Shown here in pieces: positions 41,829 to 64,000 of a stretch of 64,000 nt of DNA. Each line of letters begins with the position of its first letter. Position 1 is the first letter of the stretch. The stretch spans positions 248,001 through 312,000 of the forward strand of contig NZ_AP014724.1 in the NCBI RefSeq assembly GCF_001548055.1, read 5' to 3'. The translations under genes and the position numbers were made by a program. A model generated the notes under the pieces. It saw only the letters and a program-made list of their open reading frames with translations. It did not search any database and was not told the origin of the DNA. Origin of the DNA: Sulfurospirillum cavolei (GTDB taxonomy: Bacteria; Campylobacterota; Campylobacteria; Campylobacterales; Sulfurospirillaceae).

Positions 41829-41842
41829 TCACGGGAGATGAG

Positions 41843-44707: not shown

Positions 44708-44716
44708 GGAGACACC

Positions 44717-45349: not shown

Positions 45350-46245
45350 AGAAACGATGGATAGTACTTTTAAGCACACTGCTAAGTATGTCGTCTCTTT
45401 ATGCCATTAGCGTGAGTCAATTCGATAGTCCGTTGTACGGAACGGCGATGCTCAATGCGATTCCCAATTACCATGCGTTTGGAGAAGTGTTTACGCTTCT
45501 TCAACGCGAATGGTTCTGGAAAGGCTTTTTGATCGCACTGTTTCTGGTTCCCGTTGCGGGAGGCATTCACTATTTACTGATCGGACCTAAAGTGTTTTCG
45601 CATCACGGAAAGAAGGTTTTTGCGTTTAGCGTTTTGATGCGCGTCATGCACAATCTTGCGGCCCTTTCGTTTTTAGTCATCGTGCCTACGGGCTTTGTTA
45701 TGGCATTCGGAGATTTTTTCGGCGGCGGTATGTTTGTGAGGATTTGTAAGAACTTACACGGTTTGGCAACACCCGTGTTTGCGATTACGGTTCTTCCGAT
45801 GATTATTGCTTGGATTAGGGATATGTTCCCTAATAACGACGACGTAAAATGGATGATGATCGTGGGCGGTTACCTCTCCAAAGAGAAAAAACCCGTCCCC
45901 GCAGGTAAGTTTAACGCCGGACAAAAAGCATGGTTTTGGATCGCGATGCCAGGCGGTATCGTGATGATTATTACCGGAGCGTTGATGTTCTTTTTAAACA
46001 AGGATCTCTCACCGGTTGCTACGATGTTGGGTATGAGCCAAATCGACCTGCTACGTCTCAGTGCGATCGTTCACAATATCTTAGGTATGGTCGTCGCTAC
46101 GTTCTTTATGGTGCATGTCTATATGGCGGCGATTGCCATCAAAGGTGCGATTCATTCGATGATCACGGGTTATAAAGAAGAAGAGGAAGTCGCCATCCTT
46201 CACAGCTCTTGGTACAAGAAGCTCAAAGAAGAGGGCAAGGTTTAA
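45346..46245 (+). CDS. fdhC: Formate dehydrogenase cytochrome b subunit FdhC
   Basis: At 299 residues it has an N-terminal signal or first helix, then four core membrane helices. His residues suited to haem b ligation are in LMRVMHNLAALSFLVI, NLHGLATPVF, AIVHNILGMV and MVHVYMAA. This is the family of FdnI-like gamma subunits, which reduce menaquinone. It overlaps fdhB by 4 bp and is followed by a strong terminator. Confidence 0.94.
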   Translation: MKKRWIVLLSTLLSMSSLYAISVSQFDSPLYGTAMLNAIPNYHAFGEVFTLLQREWFWKGFLIALFLVPVAGGIHYLLIGPKVFSHHGKKVFAFSVLMRVMHNLAALSFLVIVPTGFVMAFGDFFGGGMFVRICKNLHGLATPVFAITVLPMIIAWIRDMFPNNDDVKWMMIVGGYLSKEKKPVPAGKFNAGQKAWFWIAMPGGIVMIITGALMFFLNKDLSPVATMLGMSQIDLLRLSAIVHNILGMVVATFFMVHVYMAAIAIKGAIHSMITGYKEEEEVAILHSSWYKKLKEEGKV

Positions 46246-46271
46246 TTAGCCTTACATGTAGGCTTACATGT

Positions 46272-47005: not shown

Positions 47006-47021
47006 TTTAAATGACCTTATC

Positions 47022-49211: not shown

Positions 49212-49973
49212 TCACTTATACCATACGACGATGCCTTTTTCCGCTTTGGTCGTAATATGCACTTTGTCTTGATCGCTGCTATTGGCTGCCAATAAACGTT
49301 TGATCACACTTTCTTGCGGCGTAATTTCGCGCCTTTGGAGTTGCTCGTACGCATACTTTTTTGCCTCTTCCGGCGTATAAATTTCCGTCCATGAGGTCTC
49401 AAAGAACGTGTGGTGATAACGCATCGATTTTTGTTCTAAACGATCCATAAACTGGCGGGTTTTAAAACACCCGTTAGAGCTACAGTCGTCTTCGATACCG
49501 TGCGCTTGCATGAGTGCATCGACGAAAAGGTTGGTTCGGTAAGAGCCCCAACCGACGTAAATACCCATCGTATCGGAAGATGCCATCATCTTTTCTATTT
49601 TTTCTTCCGAGTTGATCGCAGGCGTCATCGAGGCTAAAACGATGTCGTAGGTATTTTCGTCCGCGAACGCTTCCCAATCGCTTTGATGCGTTTGAATCGC
49701 TTCGTGAACGCCGTGTGCATGTGCGTCTTCGCGTAAAGCTTTTAACATACCGCTAGAGACGTCTACGGCAGTCACGCGCGCTCCTTTAAGTGCTAAAGGA
49801 ATGGCGATCGTTCCCGTTCCCGATCCGATGTCTAAAATGCTTTTATTTTCAAAGCAAACCCCTTTATCCTCACACCAGTTTAAAATAAATTGGACGTCTT
49901 TACGCATAGAATCGTCGTAAAAACGCGGATAGCGTTTTGCCATCGCTTCCCAAACAGCATTTTTCTCTTCCAT
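49212..49973 (-). CDS. SAM-dependent methyltransferase, paralogue 1
   Basis: 253 residues from ATG 49973 (CGGAG ribosome site). Class I fold: SILDIGSGTGTIAIPLALKGARVTAVDVS near residue 45 is motif I, and YDIVLASMTPAI is motif IV. It is clearly paralogous to the methyltransferase at 51.8-52.6 kb: both share WEAMAKRYPR/WDTMAERYPH, the QSDWE segment, and a Cys-containing NGCFK/GGCIK stretch. It is third in the likely operon methyltransferase 2 - radical SAM - methyltransferase 1. Substrate unknown. Confidence 0.83.
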   Translation of the reverse strand: MEEKNAVWEAMAKRYPRFYDDSMRKDVQFILNWCEDKGVCFENKSILDIGSGTGTIAIPLALKGARVTAVDVSSGMLKALREDAHAHGVHEAIQTHQSDWEAFADENTYDIVLASMTPAINSEEKIEKMMASSDTMGIYVGWGSYRTNLFVDALMQAHGIEDDCSSNGCFKTRQFMDRLEQKSMRYHHTFFETSWTEIYTPEEAKKYAYEQLQRREITPQESVIKRLLAANSSDQDKVHITTKAEKGIVVWYK

Positions 49974-50022
49974 GAAACTCCGTTTTTTTTGATGGGCACT
50001 CACGCCCTTTTCGTAACGCTTA

Positions 50023-51801
50023 TTATAGTCGATTTAAACGATGAGCGCGACTGGGTTTTGCAAACGAACGGTTGAGCATCGATGCTTCAAACGTTTGGCG
50101 ATAAAATTGTTTGTAAAAAAGCGTCGCTTCGTGATGAATATCGAAATGAAAAATCTCGGGATGGAGCATATCGGCGATATACATCAACCCCAAAATCCAC
50201 CGCGGGCTTCCAAAATCGAAACAGGGATAAGGGTGCGTATACACGCGATGTTGCTTGATTGCTTCGACGTCGATTTGCTCTTCGCGACAGGCGTCGTAAA
50301 ACGCTTCTAAAGGAGAGTCTAAAAACGAAGAGATAAAAATGACGTCCGGATTGAGTTTAAGTAGCTCTTCGCGCGTAATTTTGCGTCCCGGACGACCGTC
50401 TAAAACCAACGTTTTATTGAGGCTCATACCTCCTACCAATTCGACCAGTTGGTTTTCTAGGCGCGTATCTTCGAGTGCAAACAGAGGTTTACCCATCACG
50501 TAGTAAACGCGAGGGCGTTGCGTGACTTCTTTGAGGGCATCGACGATCGTATCGATTTTGTTGCGCATGTAAGCGATCAACGCATCGGCATTTTCTTCTT
50601 TTCCGACGATACGCGCTAAAAAAAGAATCGTAGCGGCATAATCGTCGAAATTTTGAATATCGACATGAAGCTTTTTAAGGCCGTTATCCGCTAAAAGTTC
50701 TTCCCAACAGCGTGTCACGTCGTGTTGATTGTCGACGCCGAGCGCGACCAGCGTTCCCTCGACGATCTCTAGTGCACGCGTCATCGGATAGCCGCCTTCA
50801 AAGCCCTCTTCGTCGAAAACGTTTTGAGAAGGAGCACCCGTAATCGCAAGCGTGTGAGCGCATTTCGTGCATCGACCGTCTTTAAAATGGTGGATGCGTC
50901 GTAGCTTGGATCCCATCGGTCCGTAAAAATCGCGTTCGAAGACAAGCGCACCGCAGGCAGGGCAATAGGTATGAATACATTCGCTTCCGGGGGAGTTAAA
51001 CAAATAAACGTAATCTAAACGGCTTTTGAGCGTTTGATAAAGCGTTTCCGATTCTTGAATGGAGGGTTCGTCCTCAAGTGCGGCATCGTCGATCGGAATA
51101 AAGCGCATTAATTGCAACGGTATGCTTTTCGAAAGCGTTGCCAAGTGCTCGGCAATGGCGACGACTTCGCTTTCATTGCCTTTTTTGTGAATGCACGCAA
51201 CTTCGACGTGAACGCCTTTTTGCACCAGATATTCGATATTGCGCAGTACCGGTTTATAGCTATTTGCGTGACAGCTACGGTAGATTGCGTTGCTTAGCCC
51301 TTTGAGCCCGATGTTGATAAAATCAAGGTAAGGGATTAACATGTCAAGCGTCTTCAACGTAAAATAGCCGTTACTCGAACAGCCCGTCACGAGTCCTGCT
51401 TGTTTGGCGAGTTTGCAAACTTCCAAAAACGTGAAAAACGATGCCAACGGGTCGTTCATCAAAAACGCGATGCCCGTGCAGTTAAGGCTTTGCGCTTTTT
51501 GAACGATTTGTTCAGGGCTCAGTACATGTAAAGCTTTGGAGTCCGTATCCATCTCTTTGGCGACGACCGTGGAGATGCAACCGTCGCAATCGAAATTACA
51601 ACCCGTGGTGCTGATTTGTAAAAATTTGGCACGCGGGTGAAAGTGCAAAACCGGCATCGTTTCCGCCGAAATAGGTGCCGTAACCAGATAGGTATGGGCA
51701 AAGCGTTCGTGAATCGCACCCTCGCGGCATTCGTAACGATGGCATTCCCCGATACTTCCTTCTTCCATATGACAGCGTCTTTCGCAAATAAAGCAGACCA
51801 T
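50023..51801 (-). CDS. AmrS-like radical SAM enzyme fused to a cytoplasmic binding-protein domain
   Basis: 592 residues from ATG 51801 (AAAAGG ribosome site; an upstream TTG is rejected). Residues 1-320 are an AmrS-like radical SAM enzyme. It has N-terminal CFICERRC, the cluster motif GCNFDCDGC (Cys68, 72, 75) and zinc ribbon CPAC (280-283) with CTKC (311-314). Residues ~335-575 are a class III periplasmic-binding-protein fold (RVYYVMGKPLFALED, LLKLNPDVIFISSF, DFGSPRWILGLMYIADML) related to the binding proteins in this cluster. There is no signal peptide, so the binding domain stays in the cytoplasm. It probably holds the imported ligand for radical chemistry. That fusion is unusual. Confidence 0.85.
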   Translation of the reverse strand: MVCFICERRCHMEEGSIGECHRYECREGAIHERFAHTYLVTAPISAETMPVLHFHPRAKFLQISTTGCNFDCDGCISTVVAKEMDTDSKALHVLSPEQIVQKAQSLNCTGIAFLMNDPLASFFTFLEVCKLAKQAGLVTGCSSNGYFTLKTLDMLIPYLDFINIGLKGLSNAIYRSCHANSYKPVLRNIEYLVQKGVHVEVACIHKKGNESEVVAIAEHLATLSKSIPLQLMRFIPIDDAALEDEPSIQESETLYQTLKSRLDYVYLFNSPGSECIHTYCPACGALVFERDFYGPMGSKLRRIHHFKDGRCTKCAHTLAITGAPSQNVFDEEGFEGGYPMTRALEIVEGTLVALGVDNQHDVTRCWEELLADNGLKKLHVDIQNFDDYAATILFLARIVGKEENADALIAYMRNKIDTIVDALKEVTQRPRVYYVMGKPLFALEDTRLENQLVELVGGMSLNKTLVLDGRPGRKITREELLKLNPDVIFISSFLDSPLEAFYDACREEQIDVEAIKQHRVYTHPYPCFDFGSPRWILGLMYIADMLHPEIFHFDIHHEATLFYKQFYRQTFEASMLNRSFAKPSRAHRLNRL

Positions 51802-51812
51802 GAAGCGACCTT

Positions 51813-52595
51813 TTAAATATGTTTGGGGCAAGAAGAGGGGTATTTGGAAAACAACACCATCCCTTTTTCGGCTTGCGTTTCGATTTTGACCGTTTCCTCG
51901 TGCATAAAATCGCGAATAATCGCATCGACTTTGCGCTCATCGGGTGAGAGATTTTTTCGGGCAAGCTGCTCCGCGGCATACGTTTTAGCTTCGTCGTACG
52001 TGTAGGTCTCTTCCCATGCGGTTGTGAAAAATTCGTAACTATATGTGAGCTCTTTCGTGTCGAGGTAATGCATAAAATCGGCAACTTTGATGCAGCCTCC
52101 CGACATTTTTTCGGGGGCATCGTGCGCTTGCATCAACGCTTCGAGAAAAGCGTTGGTTTTGTAGCGTCCCCAACCGACATAAAGCCCCATCGCATGGGTT
52201 GCGCTTAACATTTTATCGATATGGCTTTCTTGGGAAATAGCAGGCGTCATAGAAGCAAGAACGATGTCGAAGGTTTGCGTGAGCGGAAAACTTTCCCAAT
52301 CGCTTTGATACGATGTGAGATAGGCACGAAGCTTGAGAGCTTCGGCATCGCTCTTGAGGGCATCTAACATACCGCGTGAAAGGTCAATCGCGGTGACGCG
52401 AGCCTTTTCAAGGGCTAAAGGGATCGAAACCGTACCGGTTCCGCAGCCGATGTCCAAAAGAGAGCGGCCGTTAAAATCGAGCCCTTGACTTTTTGCCCAT
52501 GCAAGAACGCGTTGCACGTCCTTTTGCATCGCAGGATCGTCATAATGCGGATAACGCTCCGCCATCGTATCCCAAAACGAGTGATTGAATTCCAT
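51813..52595 (-). CDS. SAM-dependent methyltransferase, paralogue 2
   Basis: At 260 residues motif I is SLLDIGCGTGTVSIPLALEKARVTAIDLS and motif IV is FDIVLASMTPAIS. It is paralogous to the gene at 49.2 kb and is first in the same transcription unit, 11 bp before the radical SAM fusion gene. A strong ModE-box candidate overlaps its promoter. It may methylate or demethylate a ligand or chelator handled by this cluster; substrate unknown. Confidence 0.85.
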   Translation of the reverse strand: MEFNHSFWDTMAERYPHYDDPAMQKDVQRVLAWAKSQGLDFNGRSLLDIGCGTGTVSIPLALEKARVTAIDLSRGMLDALKSDAEALKLRAYLTSYQSDWESFPLTQTFDIVLASMTPAISQESHIDKMLSATHAMGLYVGWGRYKTNAFLEALMQAHDAPEKMSGGCIKVADFMHYLDTKELTYSYEFFTTAWEETYTYDEAKTYAAEQLARKNLSPDERKVDAIIRDFMHEETVKIETQAEKGMVLFSKYPSSCPKHI

Positions 52596-52612
52596 ATCGT
52601 GTCCTTAAATTT

Positions 52613-52636
52613 CGCTATATTGTTGAAACTATAACG
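52613..52636. promoter_or_regulatory. ModE box upstream of the methyltransferase/radical SAM operon
   Basis: A 24-bp imperfect palindrome with left half CGCTATATTG and right half CTATAACG. Its length, half-sites and even the central TTG match the E. coli modA operator layout. It overlaps the -10 region for the minus-strand gene at 52595, so molybdate-loaded ModE would repress. Confidence 0.75.
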
Positions 52637-52684
52637 AAATTTTCCTCTATCTTCAAGCTATTTTTTCATCATTGGACGATTTTT

Positions 52685-53707
52685 TTAGAGACTAAAATAG
52701 GTTTTAAGCTCTTCGTCCCGCAGTTCTACCTGAAAAAAGAGACGATAAAACGCTCTTACTTTTTCCTGAATGGAGTAAGGATAACGCGTCGGGTAGAGTT
52801 TGCTCGCAATCCAGTGTGCTCCGATAATGCGCATAAAAGAGGGCGGTCTGTCCGTCCAGTTAAAAGGTGTTTTCGGTACTAAATAGACACGCTTGTTTTG
52901 AACGGCTTTGAGCATTTGCCATTTGGGATCGGTAAACACCGTTTTGAAGAAGACGGGGCTTTGCACGATGATGACTTCGGGATCGTAAATCAAGACTTGC
53001 TCAAAACTGACCTCTTGCATTCCGATGACGCTGTTTTGAACGCATTTGTGCACCAAGTTGCCGCCGGCTAAAGCTAAAGGTTCGGAGTGAAACGAAACGT
53101 CGCATTCGGTTTGAAGCCCTAAATCACCCTCGGCGTAATAGACTTTCGTGCGTTCTGCCAAAGGAACGGAGCGGACGAAGTGCTGAAGCTCTTCAAGGTA
53201 CGTTTGCGCCATATCGGCAAGCGCGTTAGCGCGTTCTTCTTTTTGAAGCACTTTTCCTAACATCCGAAACACTTCCGGATAGCGCGTCGAATCGTCGATG
53301 TTGACTTTAAGGGAGGGAATGGAAATGCGCTCTATATCTTTAGCCGTTTTTTCGTTAAGCAAAGGCGTGTCCCACGTGATAATCACTTGAGGATGCGCCG
53401 CAACGATGGCTTCGAGATTGGGGATATTATTTCCGTGCCAACCGCCTAAAATAGGAAGTTTCATAAAGCGTTCGCTTAAAAATCGATCGCCGTTTTGGTT
53501 GTCTTGGTTGGTTTGAGGAAAATTAACGCCGATGAGCGATCGGTCGTCGATGACGTATAGCATAAACGTAATCGGAGGCGCAGAACCGTAAACGCGCGTC
53601 ATATTTTCGGGTAAAACCACGGGTTTGCCGTTAATATCGCTAAACGTACGATCGGCATTTGCCGACAAGAAGCTTATCAACGCTAATAAAGCTAAGAGGT
53701 ATCGCAT
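52685..53707 (-). CDS. Class III periplasmic binding protein 1
   Basis: 340 residues from ATG 53707 (AAAGGAG). Signal peptide ~19 residues (LLALLALISFLSANA). The fold is that of BtuF/FhuD/MolA-type binding proteins with a rigid helix. Distinctive conserved stretches shared with the two other copies are YYAEGDLGLQTECDVSFH, VHKC, YDPEVIIV, and FNWTDRPPSFMRIIGAHW. It should receive a metal chelate or oxyanion from the outer membrane receptor and pass it to an ABC permease. It starts 1 bp after the globin gene ends. Confidence 0.87.
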   Translation of the reverse strand: MRYLLALLALISFLSANADRTFSDINGKPVVLPENMTRVYGSAPPITFMLYVIDDRSLIGVNFPQTNQDNQNGDRFLSERFMKLPILGGWHGNNIPNLEAIVAAHPQVIITWDTPLLNEKTAKDIERISIPSLKVNIDDSTRYPEVFRMLGKVLQKEERANALADMAQTYLEELQHFVRSVPLAERTKVYYAEGDLGLQTECDVSFHSEPLALAGGNLVHKCVQNSVIGMQEVSFEQVLIYDPEVIIVQSPVFFKTVFTDPKWQMLKAVQNKRVYLVPKTPFNWTDRPPSFMRIIGAHWIASKLYPTRYPYSIQEKVRAFYRLFFQVELRDEELKTYFSL

Positions 53708-53708
53708 C

Positions 53709-54284
53709 TTAGCTCCTTTCGTCAAAATAAGAACGTATCGACTCAAACGGATAGCGTTTCATAGCGTCCATCGTCGTACGGCGATTGACGAGTCGCATCG
53801 ACAAGGCCTCGACCCATTCCCAAATTTCGGGAAGCAGTTCTTTGGGAAAACGGGTTATTTTTAACGCTTTGCGAAAACACATCAGCCAAATATCGCGTCC
53901 GATTTCGGTGATTTCAAACGGAAAATGGCGTTCGCGCAGCTTGGGATGACCTTGCGTTGAAGTATACAAGGTTTCGCCTCCGAGCATTTGCACGAAGAAA
54001 TCTTCGATTTTAAGCGCGGCGGCTTGAAATTCATTCTCGTCTTGAGGATAAAGCGATGCGATTTTGCTTTCGCGGATCAGGTCGTGATGGACTTGAACCA
54101 GCTTTCGAATCGCCTCTTCGCCTAAGCTTAAGAAGATGTGATTGGAAGGAAAATAGACTTCGGGGTAAATGACGTCGATCTTGGGATGACCGCGTCTTGG
54201 TTTTTCATCCGCTTTAGGAAAGGGAGCCTTGGTATCGCATTCGCTAAACAGTTGTACGTTGACACCGTCAATCGTCACGGGCAT
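53709..54284 (-). CDS. Group-2 truncated haemoglobin 1, paired with a binding protein
   Basis: At 191 residues the C-terminal ~140 form a trHbO-type globin. It shows LGGETLYTSTQGHPKLRERHFPFEIT, with proximal His120, and IGRDIWLMCFRKAL, plus a distal-site region HHDLIRES. The first 45 residues are an extension with two Lys/Pro-rich turns. No signal peptide, so it is cytoplasmic. Haem binding is likely; an enzymatic role in ligand release or redox change is inference. It is first in a two-gene unit with binding protein 1 behind a ModE-like box. Confidence 0.85.
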   Translation of the reverse strand: MPVTIDGVNVQLFSECDTKAPFPKADEKPRRGHPKIDVIYPEVYFPSNHIFLSLGEEAIRKLVQVHHDLIRESKIASLYPQDENEFQAAALKIEDFFVQMLGGETLYTSTQGHPKLRERHFPFEITEIGRDIWLMCFRKALKITRFPKELLPEIWEWVEALSMRLVNRRTTMDAMKRYPFESIRSYFDERS

Positions 54285-54340
54285 TTTTTCTCCTTATGAA
54301 GTGTCGTAGAGCTTTGAATACAGAGCCTTCGGCACGATTT

Positions 54341-54364
54341 CGATATATTTGTAAAAGTATAATG
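54341..54364. promoter_or_regulatory. ModE-like box upstream of the globin 1 operon
   Basis: A 24-bp stretch, left half CGATATATTT and right half GTATAATG, has the ModE-box spacing with one base off in the final ACG. On the minus strand it contains TATACT, a usable -10, 60 nt before the globin start codon. Confidence 0.55.
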
Positions 54365-54475
54365 GTAACGGAAAACAAGAGAGAAAGCAAGCTATGGAAT
54401 GATTAAAAAAGAATATTTTACCGATAATGCAACATGAAGATACGTACTAACAAGAAGGCGTATAACGTAAAAACG

Positions 54476-55249
54476 TTAAACGCCGACGATAATTTGAGAT
54501 GCTTTGAAAAATGCATAGGCCTCATCGCCTACTTTAATGCCTAAGCTGTCGAATGTTGCGTGAGGAATTGTTGCCGTAATCGTACTTAAGCTCGGTAATT
54601 CGAGCGTGACTTCCGTACCGGAAGCGTCGCTTAAAACTTGTACGACTTTGCCGTGCAAAAGATTTTCACATGTAGAGGTCGGTTTGGTTTTAGAAAGGGT
54701 AACCGAACTGGCTTTTAAAATCGCAATAATGGAATCACCGACGCAAAGTCCCAAATCGGCGTAACTGTTATGCGTAATGGAAGCGTAGAGTTTTTCCGCG
54801 TCTTTGATCGTAATCTCGAGCAAAACGTTGACCGTGTCTTCTTTGATGTCGGTAACGATACCCGTGAGTTGATTGCGTGCGCTGAGTTTTAAGGAGAGCC
54901 GACTGAGGGCTTTAACGATCGTGCCCAAATCTTCGCTATCGGAGAAGAGGTCTAAAAATTGTCGGTGTTTTTGCTCTAAGGTATGAAACGCTTGAATAAT
55001 TTCTTCGCCTTTTGCCGTCAGAAGCGTTCCGCCGCCGCCTTTGCCGCCGCTGGTTTTTTGCACTAAGGGCTCGTCGGAGAGGTTATTCATCGCATCAACC
55101 GAATCCCAAGCGGCTTTATAGCTCATTTTCATCGCTTTTGCGGCGGCATGAATCGAGCCGTGATGTTTAATGCGTTCCAATAACTCGATACGTCCTCGAC
55201 CGAGAAAATTTTTATCGCTTTTTTTGATCCAAAGACGGGCTTCTAACAT
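54476..55249 (-). CDS. modE: ModE-family molybdate-responsive regulator
   Basis: At 257 residues the N-terminal winged helix is ERIKHHGSIHAAAKAMKMSYKAAWDSVDAMNN, with the SGGKGGGGTLLT wing typical of ModE. Two Mop/TOBE domains follow (SARNQLTGIVTDIKEDTVN from ~123; ENLLHGKVVQVLSDASG from ~193). ModE binds molybdate or tungstate in the Mop pair and then binds DNA. It is divergent from exbB and shares a control region containing a ModE box. Its place within the TonB/binding-protein cluster is the main clue to that cluster's purpose. Confidence 0.94.
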   Translation of the reverse strand: MLEARLWIKKSDKNFLGRGRIELLERIKHHGSIHAAAKAMKMSYKAAWDSVDAMNNLSDEPLVQKTSGGKGGGGTLLTAKGEEIIQAFHTLEQKHRQFLDLFSDSEDLGTIVKALSRLSLKLSARNQLTGIVTDIKEDTVNVLLEITIKDAEKLYASITHNSYADLGLCVGDSIIAILKASSVTLSKTKPTSTCENLLHGKVVQVLSDASGTEVTLELPSLSTITATIPHATFDSLGIKVGDEAYAFFKASQIIVGV

Positions 55250-55378
55250 CGGTATTTCCTTCTACGGGTGTAAGTCAAAATGATCGGTACAGTATAGCAC
55301 AAGGGAAGCAAAAAGGGAAATGTGGTCATTTATTGAGCAAGATGATGCTACTTAGTGTATAAAAAATAGTATTAATGA

Positions 55379-55409
55379 CGTTGTATTTAGATAAATATTA
55401 CGTTATAAT
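55379..55409 (+). promoter_or_regulatory. ModE box and promoter upstream of exbB
   Basis: The 24-bp stretch at 55379-55402, left half CGTTGTATTT and right half AATATTACG, fits the ModE-box spacing. It is followed two bases on by -10 TATAAT at 55404-55409. The box thus covers the -35/spacer region of the long plus-strand operon. The leader from there to exbB is about 100 nt. Confidence 0.65.
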
Positions 55410-55513
55410 GCAAGGTTGTTTCTTGTTGTCGGCTCTTTTTCGCTCGCTCGTTATGTAATATAAGTACATATCGAAAGAGCGGAAGAGAGGCTTTTTGGAA
55501 AGGAAAATTGGGA

Positions 55514-55960
55514 ATGTTAAGTGAAAAGTTTTTATCGTTTGCGTTACTTGGAATCGATCCGGTATTGTGGGTTTTAGTCGCCATGAGCGTCATCGCTTTG
55601 GGCGTGATGATCGAGCGGGCGTTGATTTTTTGGCAAATTGAAAAATATTATAAAGAGATGGATGCGTACACGCTCAAACTCAGCCTTGACGCAAGGCTCG
55701 GAATTTTGGCGACGTTCGGAAACAATGCCCCGTTTATCGGGCTTTTCGGTACGGTGTTAGGCATTATTCAAGCATTTCACGTCATCGGAAATAACCACGC
55801 TTTTGACGTTCAACCTATTATGCAAGGTATTTCCGAAGCCTTGATCGCAACGGCTACGGGGCTTTTTGTGGCGATTCCTTGCGTGGTGGCTTACAACTAC
55901 TTTATCCGACGTGCGAAAACGATTATGATCAAACATGAGGCGTACTGCCATGGCAAGTAG
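55514..55960 (+). CDS. exbB: ExbB (MotA/TolQ/ExbB proton channel)
   Basis: 148 residues from ATG 55514 (AAAGGA upstream). Three membrane helices, with the family signature FIGLFGTVLGIIQAF and ISEALIATATGLFVAIPCVVAYNYF. This is a short Campylobacterota-type ExbB. With ExbD it uses proton flow to energise TonB. It overlaps exbD by 11 bp. Confidence 0.94.
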   Translation: MLSEKFLSFALLGIDPVLWVLVAMSVIALGVMIERALIFWQIEKYYKEMDAYTLKLSLDARLGILATFGNNAPFIGLFGTVLGIIQAFHVIGNNHAFDVQPIMQGISEALIATATGLFVAIPCVVAYNYFIRRAKTIMIKHEAYCHGK

Positions 55961-56354
55961 CCTTGAGGTCGAAAACGAGATTGCCGACATCAATATGACG
56001 CCTTTTGTCGACATCGTGCTAGTGATCTTGGTTATTTTTATGGTCACCGCAACGTTTGTAACGCAAGGCAAAATTCCTCTGAATCTCCCGCAGGCAAGCA
56101 GCGCCGAAAAACAAAAAGAGGAACAAAAACCGATCGTCATCTCTTTGGATAAAGAGGGCGTTTTTTATTACGAAGACGTCGCGATAGAGCCCGATGCGCT
56201 CGAAGCGAAGATTGCCGCATTGGATGCTACTGATCGTACGATTATTCTTCGTTCCGATGCGCAAACGCCCTTTGAGTACGTCGTAAAAATTATCGATACA
56301 TGTAAAAAATACCGTATTACGTCGTTTGCGATTCAAACCGCGGATCGCCGATAA
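55950..56354 (+). CDS. exbD: ExbD
   Basis: 134 residues from ATG 55950 (GAGG nine bases upstream). One membrane helix follows the signature ADINMTPFVDIVLVILVIFMV, with the proton-carrying Asp in PFVD, and a periplasmic domain ends LRSDAQTPFEYVVKIIDTCKK. Partner of ExbB. A slightly earlier ATG (55935) lacks a ribosome site. Confidence 0.93.
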   Translation: MASSLEVENEIADINMTPFVDIVLVILVIFMVTATFVTQGKIPLNLPQASSAEKQKEEQKPIVISLDKEGVFYYEDVAIEPDALEAKIAALDATDRTIILRSDAQTPFEYVVKIIDTCKKYRITSFAIQTADRR

Positions 56355-56385
56355 AATTAGACATCTTGCAAAACTCATTTTGCAA

Positions 56386-56470
56386 GAAGAAAAAGTACCA
56401 AGGTGCGTGGGCTTTGCGCCGAAGAAAACGCAGTGTTAACGTAGTCTTTAGAGCTTTGCTTTAAAGACGT
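56386..56470 (+). repeat. Structured intergenic repeat, diverged copy
   Basis: Carries the same pieces in the same order as the tandem repeats at 58171-58378: AAAGTACCAAGGTGCG, GCAGTGTTAACGTAG, and a TTTAGAGCTTTGCTTTAAA hairpin followed by GACGTG. It fills the gap between exbD and globin 2. Confidence 0.55.
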
Positions 56471-56510
56471 GTCAAAAGTTTTGAAAGAACTCTAATGAAA
56501 GGAAATAGCT

Positions 56511-57059
56511 ATGTGTCAGTCCCTCGAAAACGCTTTGATTCAAGACGTTAAACGCTCCAATGCCTCTCAAAAATTACGTTGGAGCGCAAGCAAAGAGCAT
56601 ATGCGTTTTCCGCCCATCGTGAAGCCCGAAGAAAATTTTTTAAAAGCCGTAGGCGAAGAGAATCTCCTTCGTATGGTGATTCATCATCATCGGCTACTTC
56701 AAAAAAGCGAAATTGCTTACATGTATCCGATCGATGAAGAGGCTTTTATGGAAGGCGTGCATAAAGCGGCGCATTTTTTTATTCAAGCTTTAGGCGGCGG
56801 TAACGTTTACACAAAAGCCTACGGTGCGCCTTCGATGTGCAAAACCCACTCACCTTTTGCCATCGATGCCCATGCGCGCGAAGTGTGGCTGAGGTATTAT
56901 GCGCAAACGCTTCAAGAGATAGCATTTCCTAAAGCGTATTTGGAGCAGTTTTGGACGTGGATCGAGACGTTTTCGCTGCGTATGATTAACCGCGCCGCTC
57001 CCAATACGTATGCAAAACGGCTTTTTTTTCATGACGTGCAAAAAGAATACGGATGGTAA
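56511..57059 (+). CDS. Group-2 truncated haemoglobin 2, paired with a binding protein
   Basis: At 182 residues the globin part shows LGGGNVYTKAYGAPSMCKTHSPFAID, with proximal His113, and AREVWLRYYAQTLQ. The WIETFSLRMINR end matches globin 1 (WVEALSMRLVNR). A 40-residue N-terminal extension differs from globin 1. It has no signal peptide. A Cys precedes the haem ligand by three residues. It overlaps the start of binding protein 2 by 7 bp, so the two are translationally coupled, mirroring the globin 1/binding protein 1 pair. Confidence 0.82.
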   Translation: MCQSLENALIQDVKRSNASQKLRWSASKEHMRFPPIVKPEENFLKAVGEENLLRMVIHHHRLLQKSEIAYMYPIDEEAFMEGVHKAAHFFIQALGGGNVYTKAYGAPSMCKTHSPFAIDAHAREVWLRYYAQTLQEIAFPKAYLEQFWTWIETFSLRMINRAAPNTYAKRLFFHDVQKEYGW

Positions 57060-58093
57060 CGGCGATGTCTTTTTATCGATTTTCGATTCGCTTTTTAATC
57101 CTTTTTTTCGGCTTGGGCGAACTTCTTTTAGCGCGCAGTATCGTCGATATGAGCGGACAGACGCTCGAAGTTCCCGATACGATAAGTAAACTCTACGCCT
57201 CGTCGCCGCCTTCGACGTATATGCTCTACACGATCGATCCTTCGTTGATCGTGGGCTTAAATTTCGATCACGCTAAAGGCAATAACGAATCGTCGAATAT
57301 GCTTGACCCTCGTTTTACGTCGCTTCCGGTGATCGGAGGTTTGCAAGGCGGAGCCAATAGCATCAATCGCGAAACGCTTTTGGCGTTGCACCCAGACGCC
57401 ATCATCTCGTGGAATACCGACGCTTCCAGCGGTCTTGCGGCATATTTATTCCAAAGCAGTCACATTGCGACGATTAACGTCAATTTGGAAAGTATCGACG
57501 ATCTCGCACGAGCGTATCGTTTTTTAGGTGAATTGCTGGATAAAAAAGAGCGTACGGAACCTTTGGCACTCTATGCCCAAGAGGTGACGCGCCAAACAAG
57601 AGCCTTGGTAGAACGTCGCGTTTCGAAACGCCCTGTCGTTTATTATGCCGAAGGTACGGACGGTTTGGCGAGTGAATGCGACAGCTCTTCACATTACGAA
57701 GCGATCAAAGTCGCCGGCGGTATCAATCCCCATTTGTGTCAACCAAGCGGCGGTAAAGGAATGGAGAAAGTGACGCTCGAACAGGTCATTTTGTACAATC
57801 CGGACGTCATTATCGCACAGGAAAAAGAGTTTGTTCAAAATGTTCAAAACGATCCGAGATGGCGTTTTGTTGCGGCGGTACAAAACAAAAGAGTCTATTT
57901 GGTTCCGAAAAAACCGTTCAACTGGATCGATAGGCCGCCTTCGTTTATGCGCCTTTTAGGGCTTCAATGGCTGACGCACGTTTTATACGACGAACCGAAT
58001 GCCTCGGAGTTTGAGACGCGTATGCAAGAGTTTTACCGCTTGTTTTTAAGAATCGATCTAAACCAAACGCAACGCCAAGCGATTTTGGATTAA
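57053..58093 (+). CDS. Class III periplasmic binding protein 2
   Basis: At 346 residues it has a signal peptide (FLILFFGLGELLLA). It carries YYAEGTDGLASECDSSSH, NPHLC, YNPDVIIA, and FNWIDRPPSFMRLLGLQW, as in copies 1 and 3. ATG 57053 overlaps the globin gene; ATG 57065 is an alternative. The closest relatives inside the window are the other two copies, which suggests duplication with possible division of ligand range. Confidence 0.86.
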   Translation: MVTAMSFYRFSIRFLILFFGLGELLLARSIVDMSGQTLEVPDTISKLYASSPPSTYMLYTIDPSLIVGLNFDHAKGNNESSNMLDPRFTSLPVIGGLQGGANSINRETLLALHPDAIISWNTDASSGLAAYLFQSSHIATINVNLESIDDLARAYRFLGELLDKKERTEPLALYAQEVTRQTRALVERRVSKRPVVYYAEGTDGLASECDSSSHYEAIKVAGGINPHLCQPSGGKGMEKVTLEQVILYNPDVIIAQEKEFVQNVQNDPRWRFVAAVQNKRVYLVPKKPFNWIDRPPSFMRLLGLQWLTHVLYDEPNASEFETRMQEFYRLFLRIDLNQTQRQAILD

Positions 58094-58170
58094 AGATGTC
58101 GGCATATGAGCCTTACATGTCAAGAATGCACATACGTAATATAAAAAAATATACCTTTTGTTTCGTAAAG

Positions 58171-58378
58171 AAAAGCACCGAAGGTGCGCGGGCACTCTGC
58201 CGAAGAGAACTCAGCGTTAGCGTAGCTTTTAGAGCTTAGCTTTAAAAGCGTGATAAAGATCAAAAAGCACCGAAGGTGCGCGGGCACTCCGTCTTGGAGA
58301 ACTCAGCGTTAGCGTAGCGTTTAGAGCTTAGCTCTAAAGGCGTGATAAAGATCAAAAAGCACCGAAGGTGCGCGGGCG
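58171..58378 (+). repeat. Tandem structured intergenic repeats (two full units and a partial third)
   Basis: Units begin at 58171, 58262-58263 and 58354-58355 and are about 91 nt long. Each has GCACC-gaa-GGTGC, a CAGCGTTAGCGTAGC stretch and an inverted repeat CTTTTAGAGC/GCTTTAAAAG. The third unit ends early. The 319-bp gap between binding protein 2 and binding protein 3 holds nothing else. Such hairpins may process the mRNA or adjust expression along the operon. Confidence 0.75.
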
Positions 58379-58412
58379 TTGCGTCTGAAAAAATAAACCT
58401 AAAGAGGGAAGA

Positions 58413-59453
58413 ATGGCCTCAAAATTATATCTTTGGATGATAGGAGCGTGTATGGGTGTGAGCGTATCGGCGTACGGTGTCGTGGATATGGCGGATAGGA
58501 ACGTAACAATCGATAAAACGATCCACAAAGTCTACGCCCCTTCTCCCTATGGAAGCTATGCTTTATATGCGATGGCTCCTTCGATGATGAGCGGTTGGGT
58601 GATGAGCATTGCAGATAAAAACAAACCGTATTTAGACCCGATTGCCAGAGATTTACCCGTTCTAGGCTCGATTAGCGGACAAGGACAAACCTCGGCAATC
58701 GAAAGCATGTTAAGTCAAAAACCCGATTTGATCTTAATGTGGTCGGCTTCACCGGTAAGTCCTATGTCGCAAACGAATCAAAAGCTAGAGCAACTCGGTG
58801 TTCCTTACGTTTACGCCGTTGCGGAAGATATGAATGCCTATCCGAAGGTGTTTCGCTTTTTGGGTGAAGTGTTGGATAAGCGTGAACGAGGCGAAAAGCT
58901 TGCCACTTTGATGCAAACCGTTTTAGACGACGTTAAAACGGCCGTCGATAAAGCGACGTATAAGCCTAAAGTCTATTATGCGGAAGGAACGGATGGACTT
59001 TCAACCGAATGCGACGACTCGATTCACGTACAGATTTTGAAATTATTGGGCGATGTGAACGTCCATCAATGCCATACTTCTAACCATAAAGGCTTTGAGA
59101 AAGTGACTTTGGAGCAGATTCTTCTTTATGATCCGGACGTTATCATTACCCCTGAAGAGATTTTTTGGAACAGCGTTCAAAATCATCCGCAATGGAAAGA
59201 GGTGAGAGCGGTGCGCGAAGGTCGCGTGTATCTTATTCCTTCGACGCCGTTCAACTGGTTTGATCGACCGCCCTCTTTTATGCGTTTTATCGGCTTACAA
59301 TGGCTAGCCAACCTTTTATACCCGAATGAATATCCCATTGATATCCAAGAAGAAACCAAACGTTTTTATGCCAATTTTATGCACGTCTCATTAGACGATG
59401 CCTCTCTTAACGTCATCTTATCACCAAAGTCTTTGGCAAAGAAAAAGGAGTAA
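58413..59453 (+). CDS. Class III periplasmic binding protein 3
   Basis: At 346 residues it has a signal peptide (MASKLYLWMIGACMGVSVSA) and AGAGGGAAG before the ATG. Conserved pieces are YYAEGTDGLSTECDDSIH, NVHQC, YDPDVIITP, and FNWFDRPPSFMRFIGLQW. It sits directly before the receptor gene and may be the main partner of that receptor. The Cys/His set shared by all three copies could bind metal or form a disulfide. Confidence 0.87.
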   Translation: MASKLYLWMIGACMGVSVSAYGVVDMADRNVTIDKTIHKVYAPSPYGSYALYAMAPSMMSGWVMSIADKNKPYLDPIARDLPVLGSISGQGQTSAIESMLSQKPDLILMWSASPVSPMSQTNQKLEQLGVPYVYAVAEDMNAYPKVFRFLGEVLDKRERGEKLATLMQTVLDDVKTAVDKATYKPKVYYAEGTDGLSTECDDSIHVQILKLLGDVNVHQCHTSNHKGFEKVTLEQILLYDPDVIITPEEIFWNSVQNHPQWKEVRAVREGRVYLIPSTPFNWFDRPPSFMRFIGLQWLANLLYPNEYPIDIQEETKRFYANFMHVSLDDASLNVILSPKSLAKKKE

Positions 59454-59454
59454 T

Positions 59455-61515
59455 ATGTCAGTTTTTAAGCCGCGTTTTGGTTCGCTCGTCGTAGCGTCCT
59501 GTTTGTTTCCTTTATCGCTCGTTGCCGCCGATACGGTCTATCAGTTAGATCCGGTGAGTACGACGGAAAATACCGAAGGTACGCCGCGCGTCGTGCGTGA
59601 AGACCTCAAACCCGATAGCATCGTCAATCCCAATAAAGTCGAAAGTAGTTCTCAAGCGGGCGTTGAGATTTTTACGCAAGAAGATATTCGGGATTTGGCA
59701 CCTAAAGATATGTTCGATCTTTTGAGCAAAGCAACGGGCGTGGACGTCACGTACCACGGACGTAAAAGTCCTTATTTTGTTAACGTGCGCGGCGGCGGTT
59801 CACTGACGTATATTATCGACGGGGCGATTTTACCTTCCACCGCCAATAAGATTCTTCAAAAAATACCGATGAATGCGATCGAAGAGATTCAAATCGTTCG
59901 CGGTTCTTCTTCTTTGACGTTAGGTCCTTCGATTAATATCGGCTCTTCTAATTCCGGCTCGGGCGTTAACGTCGGTTATATTATTATCAAAACCAAACAA
60001 CCGAAAAAAACGGAAGCGATTTTACAAGGTTCCGTGGAAAAAACGGAGAGTTTCCCTACGGCAAATAAAGAGAGTCTTTATTTGGGAACGCGCATCGATA
60101 ACGAAGAAGGAAGTGCTTTTGTCGGCGGATTGGTTTCGGGGATGCATCGCGATAGTACCGATCGCTATTTTGACGGACAAACGGCCGATGCGAGAATGGC
60201 AAACGCCGGATTTTCTTACGGCAAACTCAGCGGTAAAATTATGGCATACAAAGACGAAGGGCGTTTTGAAATGCAACGCGGCGTTACCGTGACGGGTGCA
60301 TTAGATAACTCAAAATGGTATTACGATCCGATTACCACGGAAATCGTTAGCGGCGATGCGACCGTTCAATGGAACGAAAACCACGCGACTTTGGCATCGC
60401 TTTTCTCCACGCGCTACGAGCACACCGAGTATAGCAATGAATCGTTTGCAACGACGGCAACGGGCGTTGCTAAACCGTATTGGGAAGAGACCGAGGGTGT
60501 TAGTTTACGTCACAATATCCGTTACGGCGATACGACCGTGATGTTAGGCGTGCAATCGACCGACGACGAGGGATTCGGAGCCAACAATAGTGCGAGCTAT
60601 AACCGCTTCAAAGTAAACGTGCTAGGTTGGTCGGGATCGGCGGAACAAAAACTCTTTGACGGGGCGTTGATTTTAGACGGCGGTTATAGAGAAGATCAAA
60701 AACATATTGATTATTCAAGTACGAGTGCTTCGAAAAACAGTGCCAACAACGATGAAGATATGGCACCGGCTAAAATCTACGCCTTCGGTGCCAAATGGAA
60801 TATCACGTCGATTTATGCCTTAAGTGCGCGCTATTTCAATGCCGATCAAGGAACGATGGGCGATTTTGACGTCAAAGCACAAACGGGAACGTTACATGCC
60901 GAAAAACAAGAACGTTTCGAAACCAGTTTGGAAGCCAATTACGACAAGATGTTTACGCCTATGTTTACATGGTTTAAAGTGAAAATCGATAATGAAAAAA
61001 TCGCCAGCAACACGACGTACGTCCAAAACGGTCAAACCTACTATTATTATACGGAATCCGATACGGATCGCGACGGAATCGAGCTTTTGTTAAAAGGATA
61101 TTTTTCAACGGGTACGAGTTATAAAGCCAGTTATACGCGTCTTTTGAATTACGATTCGATTAGCAGTACCGGCGTTACGACGAATAATATCGGCGGCTCG
61201 AATCCAAGAGACCTTTACACGCTTCAAGTAACGCAAGAATGGGATAAATACCGTGCCAACGTATCGCTTCAAAAAGAGAGCGGATGGCATACGTCCACCT
61301 CGGCGATGGGGACGGCGTACGATGTTAATTTAGGCGATTTTACGCGGGTTGACGCCAATATCATGCGGGATTTTAAAACCGCCGGAAATACGACGACGAC
61401 GTTAATGCTTTATGCTAGAAACATTACCGACGAGAAGTATGCGACGCGTTATACGACGGGGTATTACTACGATCGCGGTCGTGTCGTCGGTCTTGACGTC
61501 ACGCTGAAATATTAA
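59455..61515 (+). CDS. TonB-dependent outer membrane receptor
   Basis: 686 residues from ATG 59455 (AAGGAG). A signal peptide ends near ASCLFPLSLVAA. A TonB-box-like DTVYQLDPVSTT follows, then a plug domain (FTQEDIRDLAPKDMFDLLSKATGVDVTYHG; PYFVNVRGGG; IEEIQIVRGSSS), and a barrel that ends in GLDVTLKY with the terminal aromatic. It imports a ligand too large or scarce for porins. There is no FRAP/NPNL haem-receptor motif. ExbB, ExbD and TonB are encoded around it. Confidence 0.93.
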   Translation: MSVFKPRFGSLVVASCLFPLSLVAADTVYQLDPVSTTENTEGTPRVVREDLKPDSIVNPNKVESSSQAGVEIFTQEDIRDLAPKDMFDLLSKATGVDVTYHGRKSPYFVNVRGGGSLTYIIDGAILPSTANKILQKIPMNAIEEIQIVRGSSSLTLGPSINIGSSNSGSGVNVGYIIIKTKQPKKTEAILQGSVEKTESFPTANKESLYLGTRIDNEEGSAFVGGLVSGMHRDSTDRYFDGQTADARMANAGFSYGKLSGKIMAYKDEGRFEMQRGVTVTGALDNSKWYYDPITTEIVSGDATVQWNENHATLASLFSTRYEHTEYSNESFATTATGVAKPYWEETEGVSLRHNIRYGDTTVMLGVQSTDDEGFGANNSASYNRFKVNVLGWSGSAEQKLFDGALILDGGYREDQKHIDYSSTSASKNSANNDEDMAPAKIYAFGAKWNITSIYALSARYFNADQGTMGDFDVKAQTGTLHAEKQERFETSLEANYDKMFTPMFTWFKVKIDNEKIASNTTYVQNGQTYYYYTESDTDRDGIELLLKGYFSTGTSYKASYTRLLNYDSISSTGVTTNNIGGSNPRDLYTLQVTQEWDKYRANVSLQKESGWHTSTSAMGTAYDVNLGDFTRVDANIMRDFKTAGNTTTTLMLYARNITDEKYATRYTTGYYYDRGRVVGLDVTLKY

Positions 61516-61542
61516 CGTTTTGGCACAAGGATACGAAACGCT

Positions 61543-61561
61543 CAAGCGGGTTTGACGCTTG
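61543..61561. terminator. Hairpin after the receptor gene
   Basis: CAAGCG (61543-61548) pairs with CGCTTG (61556-61561) around a 7-nt loop, 28 bp past the receptor stop. It is short and has only a weak T-run, so partial read-through to the next genes is likely. Confidence 0.4.
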
Positions 61562-61588
61562 CTTGGGCTTTACATGTAAGGACAAAAG

Positions 61589-62200
61589 ATGGATGTAGAA
61601 CACTACGATCGACAATCGCGAACGGTTAAAAAACCTTTGTACACGTACTATGCGCAAAAAATTAAAGATCAAACGCGGATGATCGAAGGCAAATGTTTAG
61701 ACGTCGGCGCGTGCGGCGGTTATTTGGGACTGGAATTGGCAAAAATGACCAACCTACATGTCACGTTTTTCGACCTCAATGCGGAGGCTTTGGAAAAAGC
61801 GGCTTTGCATCTGGTCGAGGACGGTTTAGAAGAACGCGGAGCGACGCTTGTGGGCGACGTTCACGCGATTCCTTTAGAAGACGAGACGATGGATTTGATT
61901 ATTTCCAGAGGTTCGATGCCCTTTTGGGAAGATCCGGCTTTAGCATTGCAAGAGATTTACCGTATCTTGAAAAAAGGCGGTACGACGTTTGTCGGCGGAG
62001 GCAAAGGAACGCCCGAAATTAAAGCGCAAATTATCGAAAATATGCTTGCCGAAGGTCAAGAAGTCGATCTTGAAGCAATGGATAAAATGCACGGGGACGG
62101 GATGAAACGCGATTACGATGCGTTGCTGAAAAGTAAAGGCATTGAAAATTTCGTGATTCATCGCGCACAAGACGGTATTTGGATACAGATGTGGAAATAA
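61589..62200 (+). CDS. SAM-dependent methyltransferase 3
   Basis: This 203-residue class I methyltransferase (Methyltransf_11-like) has motif I KCLDVGACGGYLGLELAKM, FFDLNAEAL as the acidic strand, and LIISRGSMPFWEDPALALQEIYRIL. It is not close to the two paralogues upstream. It resembles small enzymes encoded next to metal-chelate uptake genes; the substrate is unknown. Its end overlaps the tonB start region. Confidence 0.83.
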   Translation: MDVEHYDRQSRTVKKPLYTYYAQKIKDQTRMIEGKCLDVGACGGYLGLELAKMTNLHVTFFDLNAEALEKAALHLVEDGLEERGATLVGDVHAIPLEDETMDLIISRGSMPFWEDPALALQEIYRILKKGGTTFVGGGKGTPEIKAQIIENMLAEGQEVDLEAMDKMHGDGMKRDYDALLKSKGIENFVIHRAQDGIWIQMWK

Positions 62201-62904
62201 GTGTCTCCAAAAAGCGTACATTTTCATCGATAGCCGTTTTCGGAACCGTTCTTGTGCATGCGTGTTTGGTGTATGCTTTGGCGGCGATGCCCAAAGTGTT
62301 TGAGTCTGCGGAAGAGAAAGCCGACATCGTGCATATTAGCCTGATCGACGACGAAAAACCTTCCGCACCGCCTAAACGCGAAGAGCCTCAACCTCCGATT
62401 GAGCAGCCAAAAATTCCGAACGAAGTTCCCAAAGAACAACCAAAGCCTCAAAAAAAACCCGTCGTTGCTCAAAAACCTATTGCCAAAACCGCTCCTTCTC
62501 CCGAGCCTTCTCCTATCGTAGAAGAGACGGTAACGCCGCCTCCGCCTTCTTCGCATCAGGCGCTATCCGCTTTAGAGCAACCCTCTCAAGCCTCACGTGC
62601 GTCTCAAGCCAACGAAGATGCCTTGTCACGGTATTTAGCAAAAGTTCGAAAAGCGATCCAAGCCAATCTTCAATACCCGATGATGGCAAAAAAGATGGGT
62701 ATCGAAGGCGAAACGACGGTGCAATTTAGCATTCAAGCCGACGGTACGGTCGATAAGCGAACGCTAAAAGTGTTGCACTCTAGCGGGAAAAAGGTTTTAG
62801 ACGCCAATGCCCTCAATGCCGTCATTGACGCATCGCCGTTTGAAAAGCCTCCGCAAGAGGAGCTTTTTATTAGCGTTCCCGTCGTTTTTAAATTACGTAC
62901 GTAA
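62179..62904 (+). CDS. tonB: TonB energy-transducing protein
   Basis: Up to 241 residues. N-terminal membrane helix (IAVFGTVLVHACLVYALAAM) with the conserved His, then a proline/lysine-rich spacer (about 65-125). The TonB C-terminal domain is YLAKVRKAIQANLQYPMMAKKMGIEGETTVQF. The start is TTG 62179 or GTG 62191; both overlap the methyltransferase gene. It links ExbBD to the receptor at 59.5 kb. Confidence 0.92.
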   Translation: MDTDVEISVSKKRTFSSIAVFGTVLVHACLVYALAAMPKVFESAEEKADIVHISLIDDEKPSAPPKREEPQPPIEQPKIPNEVPKEQPKPQKKPVVAQKPIAKTAPSPEPSPIVEETVTPPPPSSHQALSALEQPSQASRASQANEDALSRYLAKVRKAIQANLQYPMMAKKMGIEGETTVQFSIQADGTVDKRTLKVLHSSGKKVLDANALNAVIDASPFEKPPQEELFISVPVVFKLRT

Positions 62905-62918
62905 AAGGATTATGAAGT

Positions 62919-63950
62919 ATGAAATGGGGAATTTTTTGTCTGTTTGAACGGTATGAAACCGATGCATGCGAGGCGATTCATGCACAGATGCGTTTAGTGG
63001 AGCAAGCCGAAAAAGAAGGCTTGGAAGAGGTCTGGTTCGGGGAGCATCATTTTAATGATTTTAGTATCTGTCCTTCTCCTACGGTTTTGCTTGCCAACGC
63101 GTGTGCGAGGACGCAAACGATTCGTTTAGGGTGTGCGGGCTTTTTAGCACCTTTTTACGATGCGATACGCTTAGCCGAAGATGCGGCGATGTTGGATATT
63201 TTAAGTCGCGGACGGTTTAATTTGGGACTCGCCAAAGGTGCGTTCGCGCCCGATTCCAAGCATTTCAATACGACGACCGAACAGCTACGCCCTAAACTTT
63301 TGGAGTGTGCGCAAGCGGTAGATTCACTCTTAAATACCGGTGCTCATCCCGTTAGTTTTCACGGAGACTTTTTTGATTTTACGGAAGTAGACGTCGAGCC
63401 GAAAACCTTGCAAAGCTCCATTCCGACCTATATCGCAACGTTTGCCTCGGAAGAGACGATCGCGTTTGCGGCACGCAAAGGCTGGGGTTTGATGCTCTCT
63501 CAGGGCGTCGATTTGGACGAGTGCGAACGCGTGAGTCGCTATTATGCTTCGATCGCCGGATATGAGCCCGAGATCGTTTTACTGCGTACGTTTTACGTGG
63601 CACAAAGCTATGAAGAAGCCTTTGCCAAAGCACGTCCGGCGATCGATCATTTCGTCAAATCCATGCGCGCGGCATCGTCTTTTAACAAATCTCCGCAATT
63701 TGATCAAACGCGCTATCAAGCGTTGATTCAAGAACGCAACGTCTTTTTCGACGGTCAGAAATTCTTTGAAAACGGCATTATCGGCGATGCGCAACGCTGC
63801 ATCGATACGTGTTTGACGATTCAAAAACGTTTTCCGAAAGTACATGTCGCTTTAAAGCTTTTGGGAACGAATGAAAACGAAAACGCCCGTTTGCTTCACG
63901 ATTTTACGCGGCTTGTACGTCCGTTCGTCGATAAGGCGCATCATGGTTAA
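62919..63950 (+). CDS. Luciferase-like (LLM) flavin-dependent monooxygenase
   Basis: This 343-residue TIM-barrel oxidoreductase has LEEVWFGEHHFNDFSICPSPTVLLA, IRLGCAGFLAPFYDAIRLAEDAAMLDILSRGRFNLGLAKG and IPTYIATFASEETIAFAA. LLM proteins use reduced FMN to oxidise organic substrates, sometimes cleaving C-S, C-N or siderophore-like bonds. In this operon it may modify the imported ligand. In an organism that lives mostly without oxygen, its oxidant is a puzzle. Confidence 0.88.
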   Translation: MKWGIFCLFERYETDACEAIHAQMRLVEQAEKEGLEEVWFGEHHFNDFSICPSPTVLLANACARTQTIRLGCAGFLAPFYDAIRLAEDAAMLDILSRGRFNLGLAKGAFAPDSKHFNTTTEQLRPKLLECAQAVDSLLNTGAHPVSFHGDFFDFTEVDVEPKTLQSSIPTYIATFASEETIAFAARKGWGLMLSQGVDLDECERVSRYYASIAGYEPEIVLLRTFYVAQSYEEAFAKARPAIDHFVKSMRAASSFNKSPQFDQTRYQALIQERNVFFDGQKFFENGIIGDAQRCIDTCLTIQKRFPKVHVALKLLGTNENENARLLHDFTRLVRPFVDKAHHG

Positions 63951-64000
63951 AACGTCTCTTTTGTTTGCGATTGCTTTCGTGCTTTTGATCGCCTCGTTTT
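63943..64000 (+). CDS. Probable FecCD-type ABC permease, N-terminal fragment
   Basis: ATG 63943 overlaps the end of the monooxygenase gene by 8 bp; the visible part reads MVKTSLLFAIAFVLLIASF, one hydrophobic helix. FecCD/BtuC permeases begin like this and are the expected partner for the class III binding proteins upstream. With 19 residues visible, the identification leans on context. Confidence 0.55.
   Translation, partial: MVKTSLLFAIAFVLLIASF

Follow-up and report, generated by a model that had tools for sequence, protein, structure and literature searches.

A ModE-associated TonB/FecCD uptake locus in Sulfurospirillum cavolei as a candidate importer of ligand-bound molybdenum or tungsten

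A transport gene set divided by ModE1

We analyzed a stretch of 64,000 nucleotides (the window; contig NZ_AP014724.1, positions 248,001 to 312,000) from Sulfurospirillum cavolei, whose 2.70-Mb genome is a single contig. Near its right end, a gene for a ModE-family regulator (ModE1) lies between two divergent arms of apparent uptake genes (Table 1). The leftward arm encodes, from ModE1 outward, a truncated globin, a class III binding protein (SBP1), methyltransferase B (MTB), a radical SAM enzyme fused to a class III binding-protein domain, and methyltransferase A (MTA). The rightward arm encodes ExbB, ExbD, a second globin, SBP2, SBP3, a TonB-dependent receptor (TBDR1), methyltransferase C (MTC), TonB, an LLM-class flavin monooxygenase, a FecCD permease, a FecE-type ATPase, and a second receptor (TBDR2). 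An initial annotation, made from the DNA letters alone, had named the classes from ModE to the LLM enzyme, and family matches found every one of them in its place. What it had called a likely FecCD permease start turned out to be a complete permease (267 bits), with the ATPase and TBDR2 following outside the window (locus L009:872-4855; L and G numbers are our handles for loci and genomes).

ModE1 has a ModE_repress domain and two TOBE domains above cut-off, and it passes both TIGR00637 (103.8 bits, cut-off 98.5) and TIGR00638 (106.8 bits, cut-off 55). It matches E. coli ModE (1O7L) with E = 1.7e-39, and the SYK-AWD and SARNQ segments are common to both proteins. Its score for the full-length NCBIfam equivalog PRK10676 is below the cut-off (181.8 of 369 bits); judged by its sequence, ModE1 is a member of the wider ModE family outside that equivalog. 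As expected of a ModE regulator, it has cognate boxes at target promoters, and its DNA binding is predicted to depend on molybdate or tungstate.

Table 1. Features of the ModE1 locus and of the adjoining part of the window
Feature	Position	Strand	Remarks
ModE box, 2 mismatches	38969..38992		upstream of gene at 39043 leading into formate dehydrogenase region
fdhABC, formate dehydrogenase (Mo/W enzyme)	41843..46245	+	fdhA split by in-frame TGA
Methyltransferase A (MTA)	49212..50003	-	Pfam Methyltransf_25
Radical SAM enzyme/class III binding-protein domain fusion	50023..51831	-	N-lobe shortened
Methyltransferase B (MTB)	51813..52595	-	
ModE box, 1 mismatch	52613..52636		~30 bp upstream of MTB
Class III binding protein SBP1	52685..53746	-	PF01497; orthologue of PDB 4PAG
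Truncated globin 1	53709..54284	-	PF01152, 72.7 bits
ModE box, 3 mismatches	54341..54364		upstream of globin 1; orthologous box has 1 mismatch in L123, L127
ModE1 regulator	54476..55249	-	DNA-binding domain and two Mop/TOBE domains
ModE box, 2 mismatches	55379..55402		exbB promoter, immediately before -10-like TATAAT
Conserved palindrome, exbB leader	55449..55473		perfect 11-bp inverted repeat in G065; 2-mismatch box in L124
ExbB	55508..55960	+	
ExbD	55935..56354	+	
Truncated globin 2	56511..57059	+	PF01152
Class III binding protein SBP2	57053..58093	+	PF01497
Class III binding protein SBP3	58413..59453	+	PF01497
TonB-dependent receptor 1 (TBDR1)	59398..61515	+	PF07715 plug above cut-off
Methyltransferase C (MTC)	61589..62200	+	
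TonB	62179..62904	+	
LLM-class flavin monooxygenase	62919..63950	+	
FecCD permease start	63871..64000	+	runs on past the window

ModE boxes in the genome, the genus, and other phyla

The E. coli ModE box has the consensus ATCGNTATATA-N6-TATATANCGAT (PMC545781). We searched the genome with CGTTATAT-N8-ATATAACG, scored the boxes in the window against CGYTATAT-N8-ATATARCG, and used the reversed pattern as the control. With at most two mismatches, there were 13 boxes and just 1 control match, so the boxes exceed chance. With at most three mismatches, the numbers were 33 and 22; because this excess is weak, the site before globin 1 is supported mainly by its better versions in orthologous loci, and we used 3-mismatch matches only alongside other support. 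The box candidates that had been proposed at three promoters (MTB, globin 1, and exbB) are present, and the 20 kb around them contain no match to the reversed pattern. The exbB box is kept in 8 of 8 aligned loci, and several orthologues of MTA have a box 26–30 bp upstream. A weak box-like stretch 5' of SBP3 was left uncounted; support there comes only from orthologues, as the SBP3-TBDR1-MTC module of genomes G139 and G249 has a perfect box ~30–40 bp upstream. The palindrome in the exbB leader, which had no match in Rfam, may be either a second ModE-like operator or an RNA hairpin.

The 13 sites include both formate dehydrogenase regions, mop, a nifA-like gene, a molybdopterin oxidoreductase gene, MTB, exbB, a NudC-like gene, and two lone methyltransferases (42–43% identical to MTB). 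They also include three TonB-receptor operons, one with a receptor, a methyltransferase, and a binding protein and two with a receptor and a binding protein. Among the nine PF00593 receptors of the genome, five have a promoter box with 1–3 mismatches, and the best matches for the other four have 5–6.

All 24 congeneric genomes contain a ModE, which is of the window type (61–100% identity) in 17 of them. The other seven have only a distant, modABC-type ModE (39–45% identity among the matches listed). There are 3–13 boxes in each of the 17 genomes and 0–1 in each of the seven, a complete separation among related, and hence non-independent, genomes.

We read the orthologous loci of 11 of these bacteria (G161, G139, G020, G183, G065, G251, G257, G204, G150, G052, and G078). 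ModE stays at the divide between the arms, and formate dehydrogenase genes adjoin in most loci. ModE, MTA, ExbB/D, TonB, FecCD, and FecE form the minimal recurring set, to which SBP2, a globin, and a receptor are usually added; in the stretch read from G078, ModE and MTA alone are kept. SBP3-TBDR1-MTC is a movable module: G139 and G249 have it at a different site, close to a gene for a molybdopterin oxidoreductase. Of the named relatives among the loci, Sulfurospirillum sp. UBA4058 is nearest (94% identity for SBP2). In the locus from G020 (L044), exbD and globin 1 each appear to be split across two frames.

A scan of bacterial genomes by alignment to the binding proteins alone gave 77 loci (L122–L198), 66 of them outside Sulfurospirillum, in Campylobacterota, Desulfobacterota, Geobacter, and Spirochaetes. 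These 66 loci frequently encode a TonB receptor (54), a methyltransferase (57), FecCD (56), and FecE (58). The initial annotation had proposed checking whether the gene set recurs with modE, and it does: 16 of the 66 loci contain a ModE gene and 23 have a box with at most one mismatch (perfect in 6), as compared to 0 for the reversed control. Many of these boxes precede a receptor, binding-protein, or globin gene by 20–80 bp, and some lie upstream of DUF364 genes. Molybdoenzyme genes recur as neighbors; by clustering, the neighbors also include FmdE (23 loci), DUF364 (15), ModA (7), ModD-like proteins (5), and MoeA (4). Globins and LLM enzymes are found in 20 and 17 of the 29 Campylobacterota loci (L188 is tallied with these) and in 0 of the 48 others, and FmdE and DUF364 are found only in the non-Campylobacterota loci. 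It is as if different accessory enzymes served one purpose across phyla.

Given the genome-wide motif counts, the co-occurrence of ModE1 and boxes in the genus, and the recurrence of genes and boxes in distant phyla, the molybdenum-responsive regulation that had been proposed is strongly supported, and ModE very probably controls the TonB/FecCD system.

Cargo, accessory enzymes, and competing explanations

Among solved structures, the closest to the binding proteins is 4PAG, the Sulfurospirillum deleyianum orthologue of SBP1, which came up with no named ligand, followed by 4OVK, 4HN9, and the molybdate-binding protein MolA (3PSA). The initial annotation had cited MolA as a precedent; it is indeed a homologue, although 4PAG is nearer, and the near-invariant motif PFNWxDRPPSFMR marks a subfamily separate from MolA. 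PF01497 binding proteins related to MolA, together with a FecCD permease, correspond to a MolABC-type system, which would imply molybdate or tungstate binding. They do not correspond to a ModABC-type system, which has class I binding proteins (PF13531) and ModB; the ModA-like proteins of this genome are encoded elsewhere (L109). ModE control, the neighboring genes, and the likeness to MolA point to molybdenum or tungsten (Mo/W) as the cargo. Of the proposed outer-membrane route for Mo/W, probably as a chelate, the route follows from the regulation, the similarity to MolA, and the architecture of class III binding proteins, FecCD, and TonB, while the cargo is what we infer; import of Mo/W in bound form is probable.

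The radical SAM fusion is not peculiar to these bacteria. We had thought so from an order-only search, and we dropped the idea when full-length fusions (38–50% identity) were found in Desulfobacterota, Geobacter, and a metagenome-assembled Spirochaete genome; some distant loci have the radical SAM part alone. In a structural model (pLDDT 86), the first part is similar to pyruvate formate-lyase activase, QueE, and NifB, and residues ~353–584 are similar to class III binding proteins, among them MolA (Z 18.4, rmsd 2.7, 215 residues aligned). A shortened, mostly helical segment precedes the C-lobe in place of a full N-lobe, so we also dropped the idea of a complete two-lobed binding protein, even though ~220 residues align with such proteins. 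The fusion scores under the cut-off for AmmeMemoRadiSam (TIGR04337; 129 of 220 bits), which makes it clearly a relative and not a member of that family. No signal peptide is evident, and the fusion is therefore probably cytoplasmic.

Our best reading of the locus, and a likely one, is a ModE-repressed TonB/ABC importer for ligand-bound Mo or W with cytoplasmic ligand-processing enzymes. The metal would enter complexed with a ligand, either organic or sulfur. Under Mo scarcity, molybdate-free ModE1 would be off its boxes and the genes would be expressed. Several outer-membrane receptors, energized by TonB-ExbB-ExbD, would take up the complex, and the class III binding proteins would pass it to the FecCD/FecE importer. 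The metal might then be freed as cytoplasmic methyltransferases and the radical SAM/half-binding-protein fusion alter the ligand; in Campylobacterota, the flavin monooxygenase and the globins may alter it as well. A more specific version is that Mo/W transport on a dedicated metallophore is an undescribed use of TonB that crosses phyla and is ruled by ModE as iron transport is by Fur, with the fusion stripping or remodeling the ligand in the cytoplasm. We give this version slightly less than an even chance.

Several points weigh against such an importer. The binding proteins resemble binders of haem, cobalamin, and siderophores, at low scores far under the cut-offs. A box with at most one mismatch is missing from roughly two thirds of the distant loci. 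Ordinary importers (modABC and tup-like genes) are also present in the genome. Finally, ModE could be an activator instead of a repressor, or it could govern the uptake of another nutrient that Mo enzymes need.

Ligand processing had been a reasonable guess; these enzymes may break the ligand down or may instead make a metallophore. In the form in which the methyltransferases, radical SAM enzyme, LLM enzyme, and globins make a secreted Mo metallophore that is later re-imported, we consider synthesis unlikely. It would fit the frequency of methyltransferases (66 of the 77 loci), the two lone ones behind ModE boxes, and a box with 2–3 mismatches separating a TonB receptor from a divergent TolC/HlyD/ABC efflux operon (L108:8062-15133; G000:C1:649061-656132), which is a possible metallophore exporter. 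However, the genome has no condensation domain (PF00668) of nonribosomal peptide synthetases, no scaffold-making enzyme was recognized among the genes we read, and the binding-protein domain of the fusion suits an incoming complex better.

Thiomolybdate or thiotungstate from sulfidic habitats might instead be imported without an organic carrier, with the methyltransferases acting on sulfur ligands. This is a good deal less probable: porins normally let small anions through, and the radical SAM, LLM, and globin proteins would have no obvious role. In its favor, many of the hosts are sulfur-cycling or sulfidogenic anaerobes, and sulfide turns molybdate into particle-reactive thiomolybdates (PMC3627308).

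Slightly less probable still is an ordinary iron-siderophore, haem, or cobalamin locus that merely lies beside modE. The TonB/FecCD/class III architecture, the globins, and low-scoring matches to the BtuF, IsdE, and FecB families would fit. But ModE boxes are found at the promoters across phyla, and the binding proteins miss every haem, B12, and siderophore equivalog cut-off (for example, 27–38 bits for BtuF and IsdE, whose cut-offs are 234 and 299). With a Fur consensus that may not be that of this organism's own Fur, no box with at most 5 mismatches was found in 20 kb, and the best match at the exbB and receptor promoters was mismatched at 7 of 18 positions. Rfam, including its B12 riboswitches, gave no match in L008 (up to G000:311999). 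The iron and cobalamin alternatives that the initial annotation had kept in play therefore gain no support.

Least probable of all is that the system imports a ready-made cofactor, either of the pterin type (molybdopterin-like or tungstopterin) or another one used by Mo enzymes. Genes for MoeA, FmdE, and molybdoenzymes are recurrent neighbors, and a published passage proposes that DUF364 acts on flavin or pterin derivatives linked to rare metals (PMC2954201), but no molybdopterin-binding domain was found within the core genes and no DUF364 in this genome.

Known systems and neighboring features

The importer we favor resembles MolABC of Haemophilus influenzae (HI1470-1472), which combines a homologous class III binding protein (3PSA, E ~1e-11 to 3e-13) with a FecCD-type permease for molybdate or tungstate. 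The S. cavolei locus has, in addition, TonB, ExbBD, several receptors, methyltransferases, the radical SAM fusion, and ModE control. ModABC/ModE of E. coli and Geobacter sulfurreducens shares the regulator family and the box consensus (PMC545781), but its binding protein is of class I and it lacks an outer-membrane receptor. Ferric-siderophore TonB/FecBCDE systems under Fur have the same transport architecture and differ in regulator, boxes, neighbors, and accessory enzymes. In Azotobacter chroococcum, a TonB receptor and an ABC transporter "potentially for molybdate" lie beside modE/modG and modABC (Achr_39320-39230; PMC4465626). That suggestion is based on annotation, and the passage on the cluster, whose description is all that we compared, contains neither the methyltransferase/radical SAM set nor an analysis of ModE boxes. 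It is the only remark linking TonB with ModE or molybdenum that we found in the open-licence literature, where absence is not proof. Genome context in published work has tied DUF364 and FmdE to the transport of rare metals or metal ions (PMC2954201, PMC2954224); the published passages on their neighborhoods do not mention a ModE-controlled TonB link, and here both recur in non-Campylobacterota loci.

Molybdenum is usually taught to diffuse across the outer membrane as molybdate, and a 2024 review of TonB substrates contains no words beginning with "molybd" or "tungst". If our reading is correct, Mo or W is a regulated TonB substrate, the old molybdophore question becomes directly testable outside Azotobacter, and there are hints at what DUF364, FmdE, and the radical SAM fusion do. 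The receptors that ModE would govern make up about half of the TonB receptors of one genome and recur in sulfur-cycling and metal-reducing anaerobes, with a bearing on how lack of Mo limits nitrogen fixation and formate metabolism in sulfidic environments.

The box at the nifA-like activator gene (L070:1501-1535; G000:C1:1234345) has one mismatch, lies 23 bp upstream, and perhaps ties Mo status to nitrogen fixation. The genome's second ModE (ModE2; L109:8838-14729) heads modA, mop, modB, modC, and a gene for a tup-like binding protein, with a ModD-like gene there too; this operon has no E. coli-type ModE box (the best match has 5 mismatches). The fdhABC operon is present twice, in inverted orientation (window 41626-46275 and G000:C1:1163405-1168054, L115). 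The copies differ by 2 mismatches in 4650 bp, and each has a ModE box upstream, at differing distances. The in-frame TGA in fdhA is likely to encode selenocysteine. Between fdhABC and the ModE1 locus (window 46308-48766), there is a possible defense-type pair, an AAA_21 ATPase and a DUF4276 protein, which is in none of the other loci read. Farther left (window 13696-22000), a tRNA-Ser gene (13696-13783) is followed by an integrase gene and 8 kb with a GC content of ~0.23–0.37, likely an integrated element.

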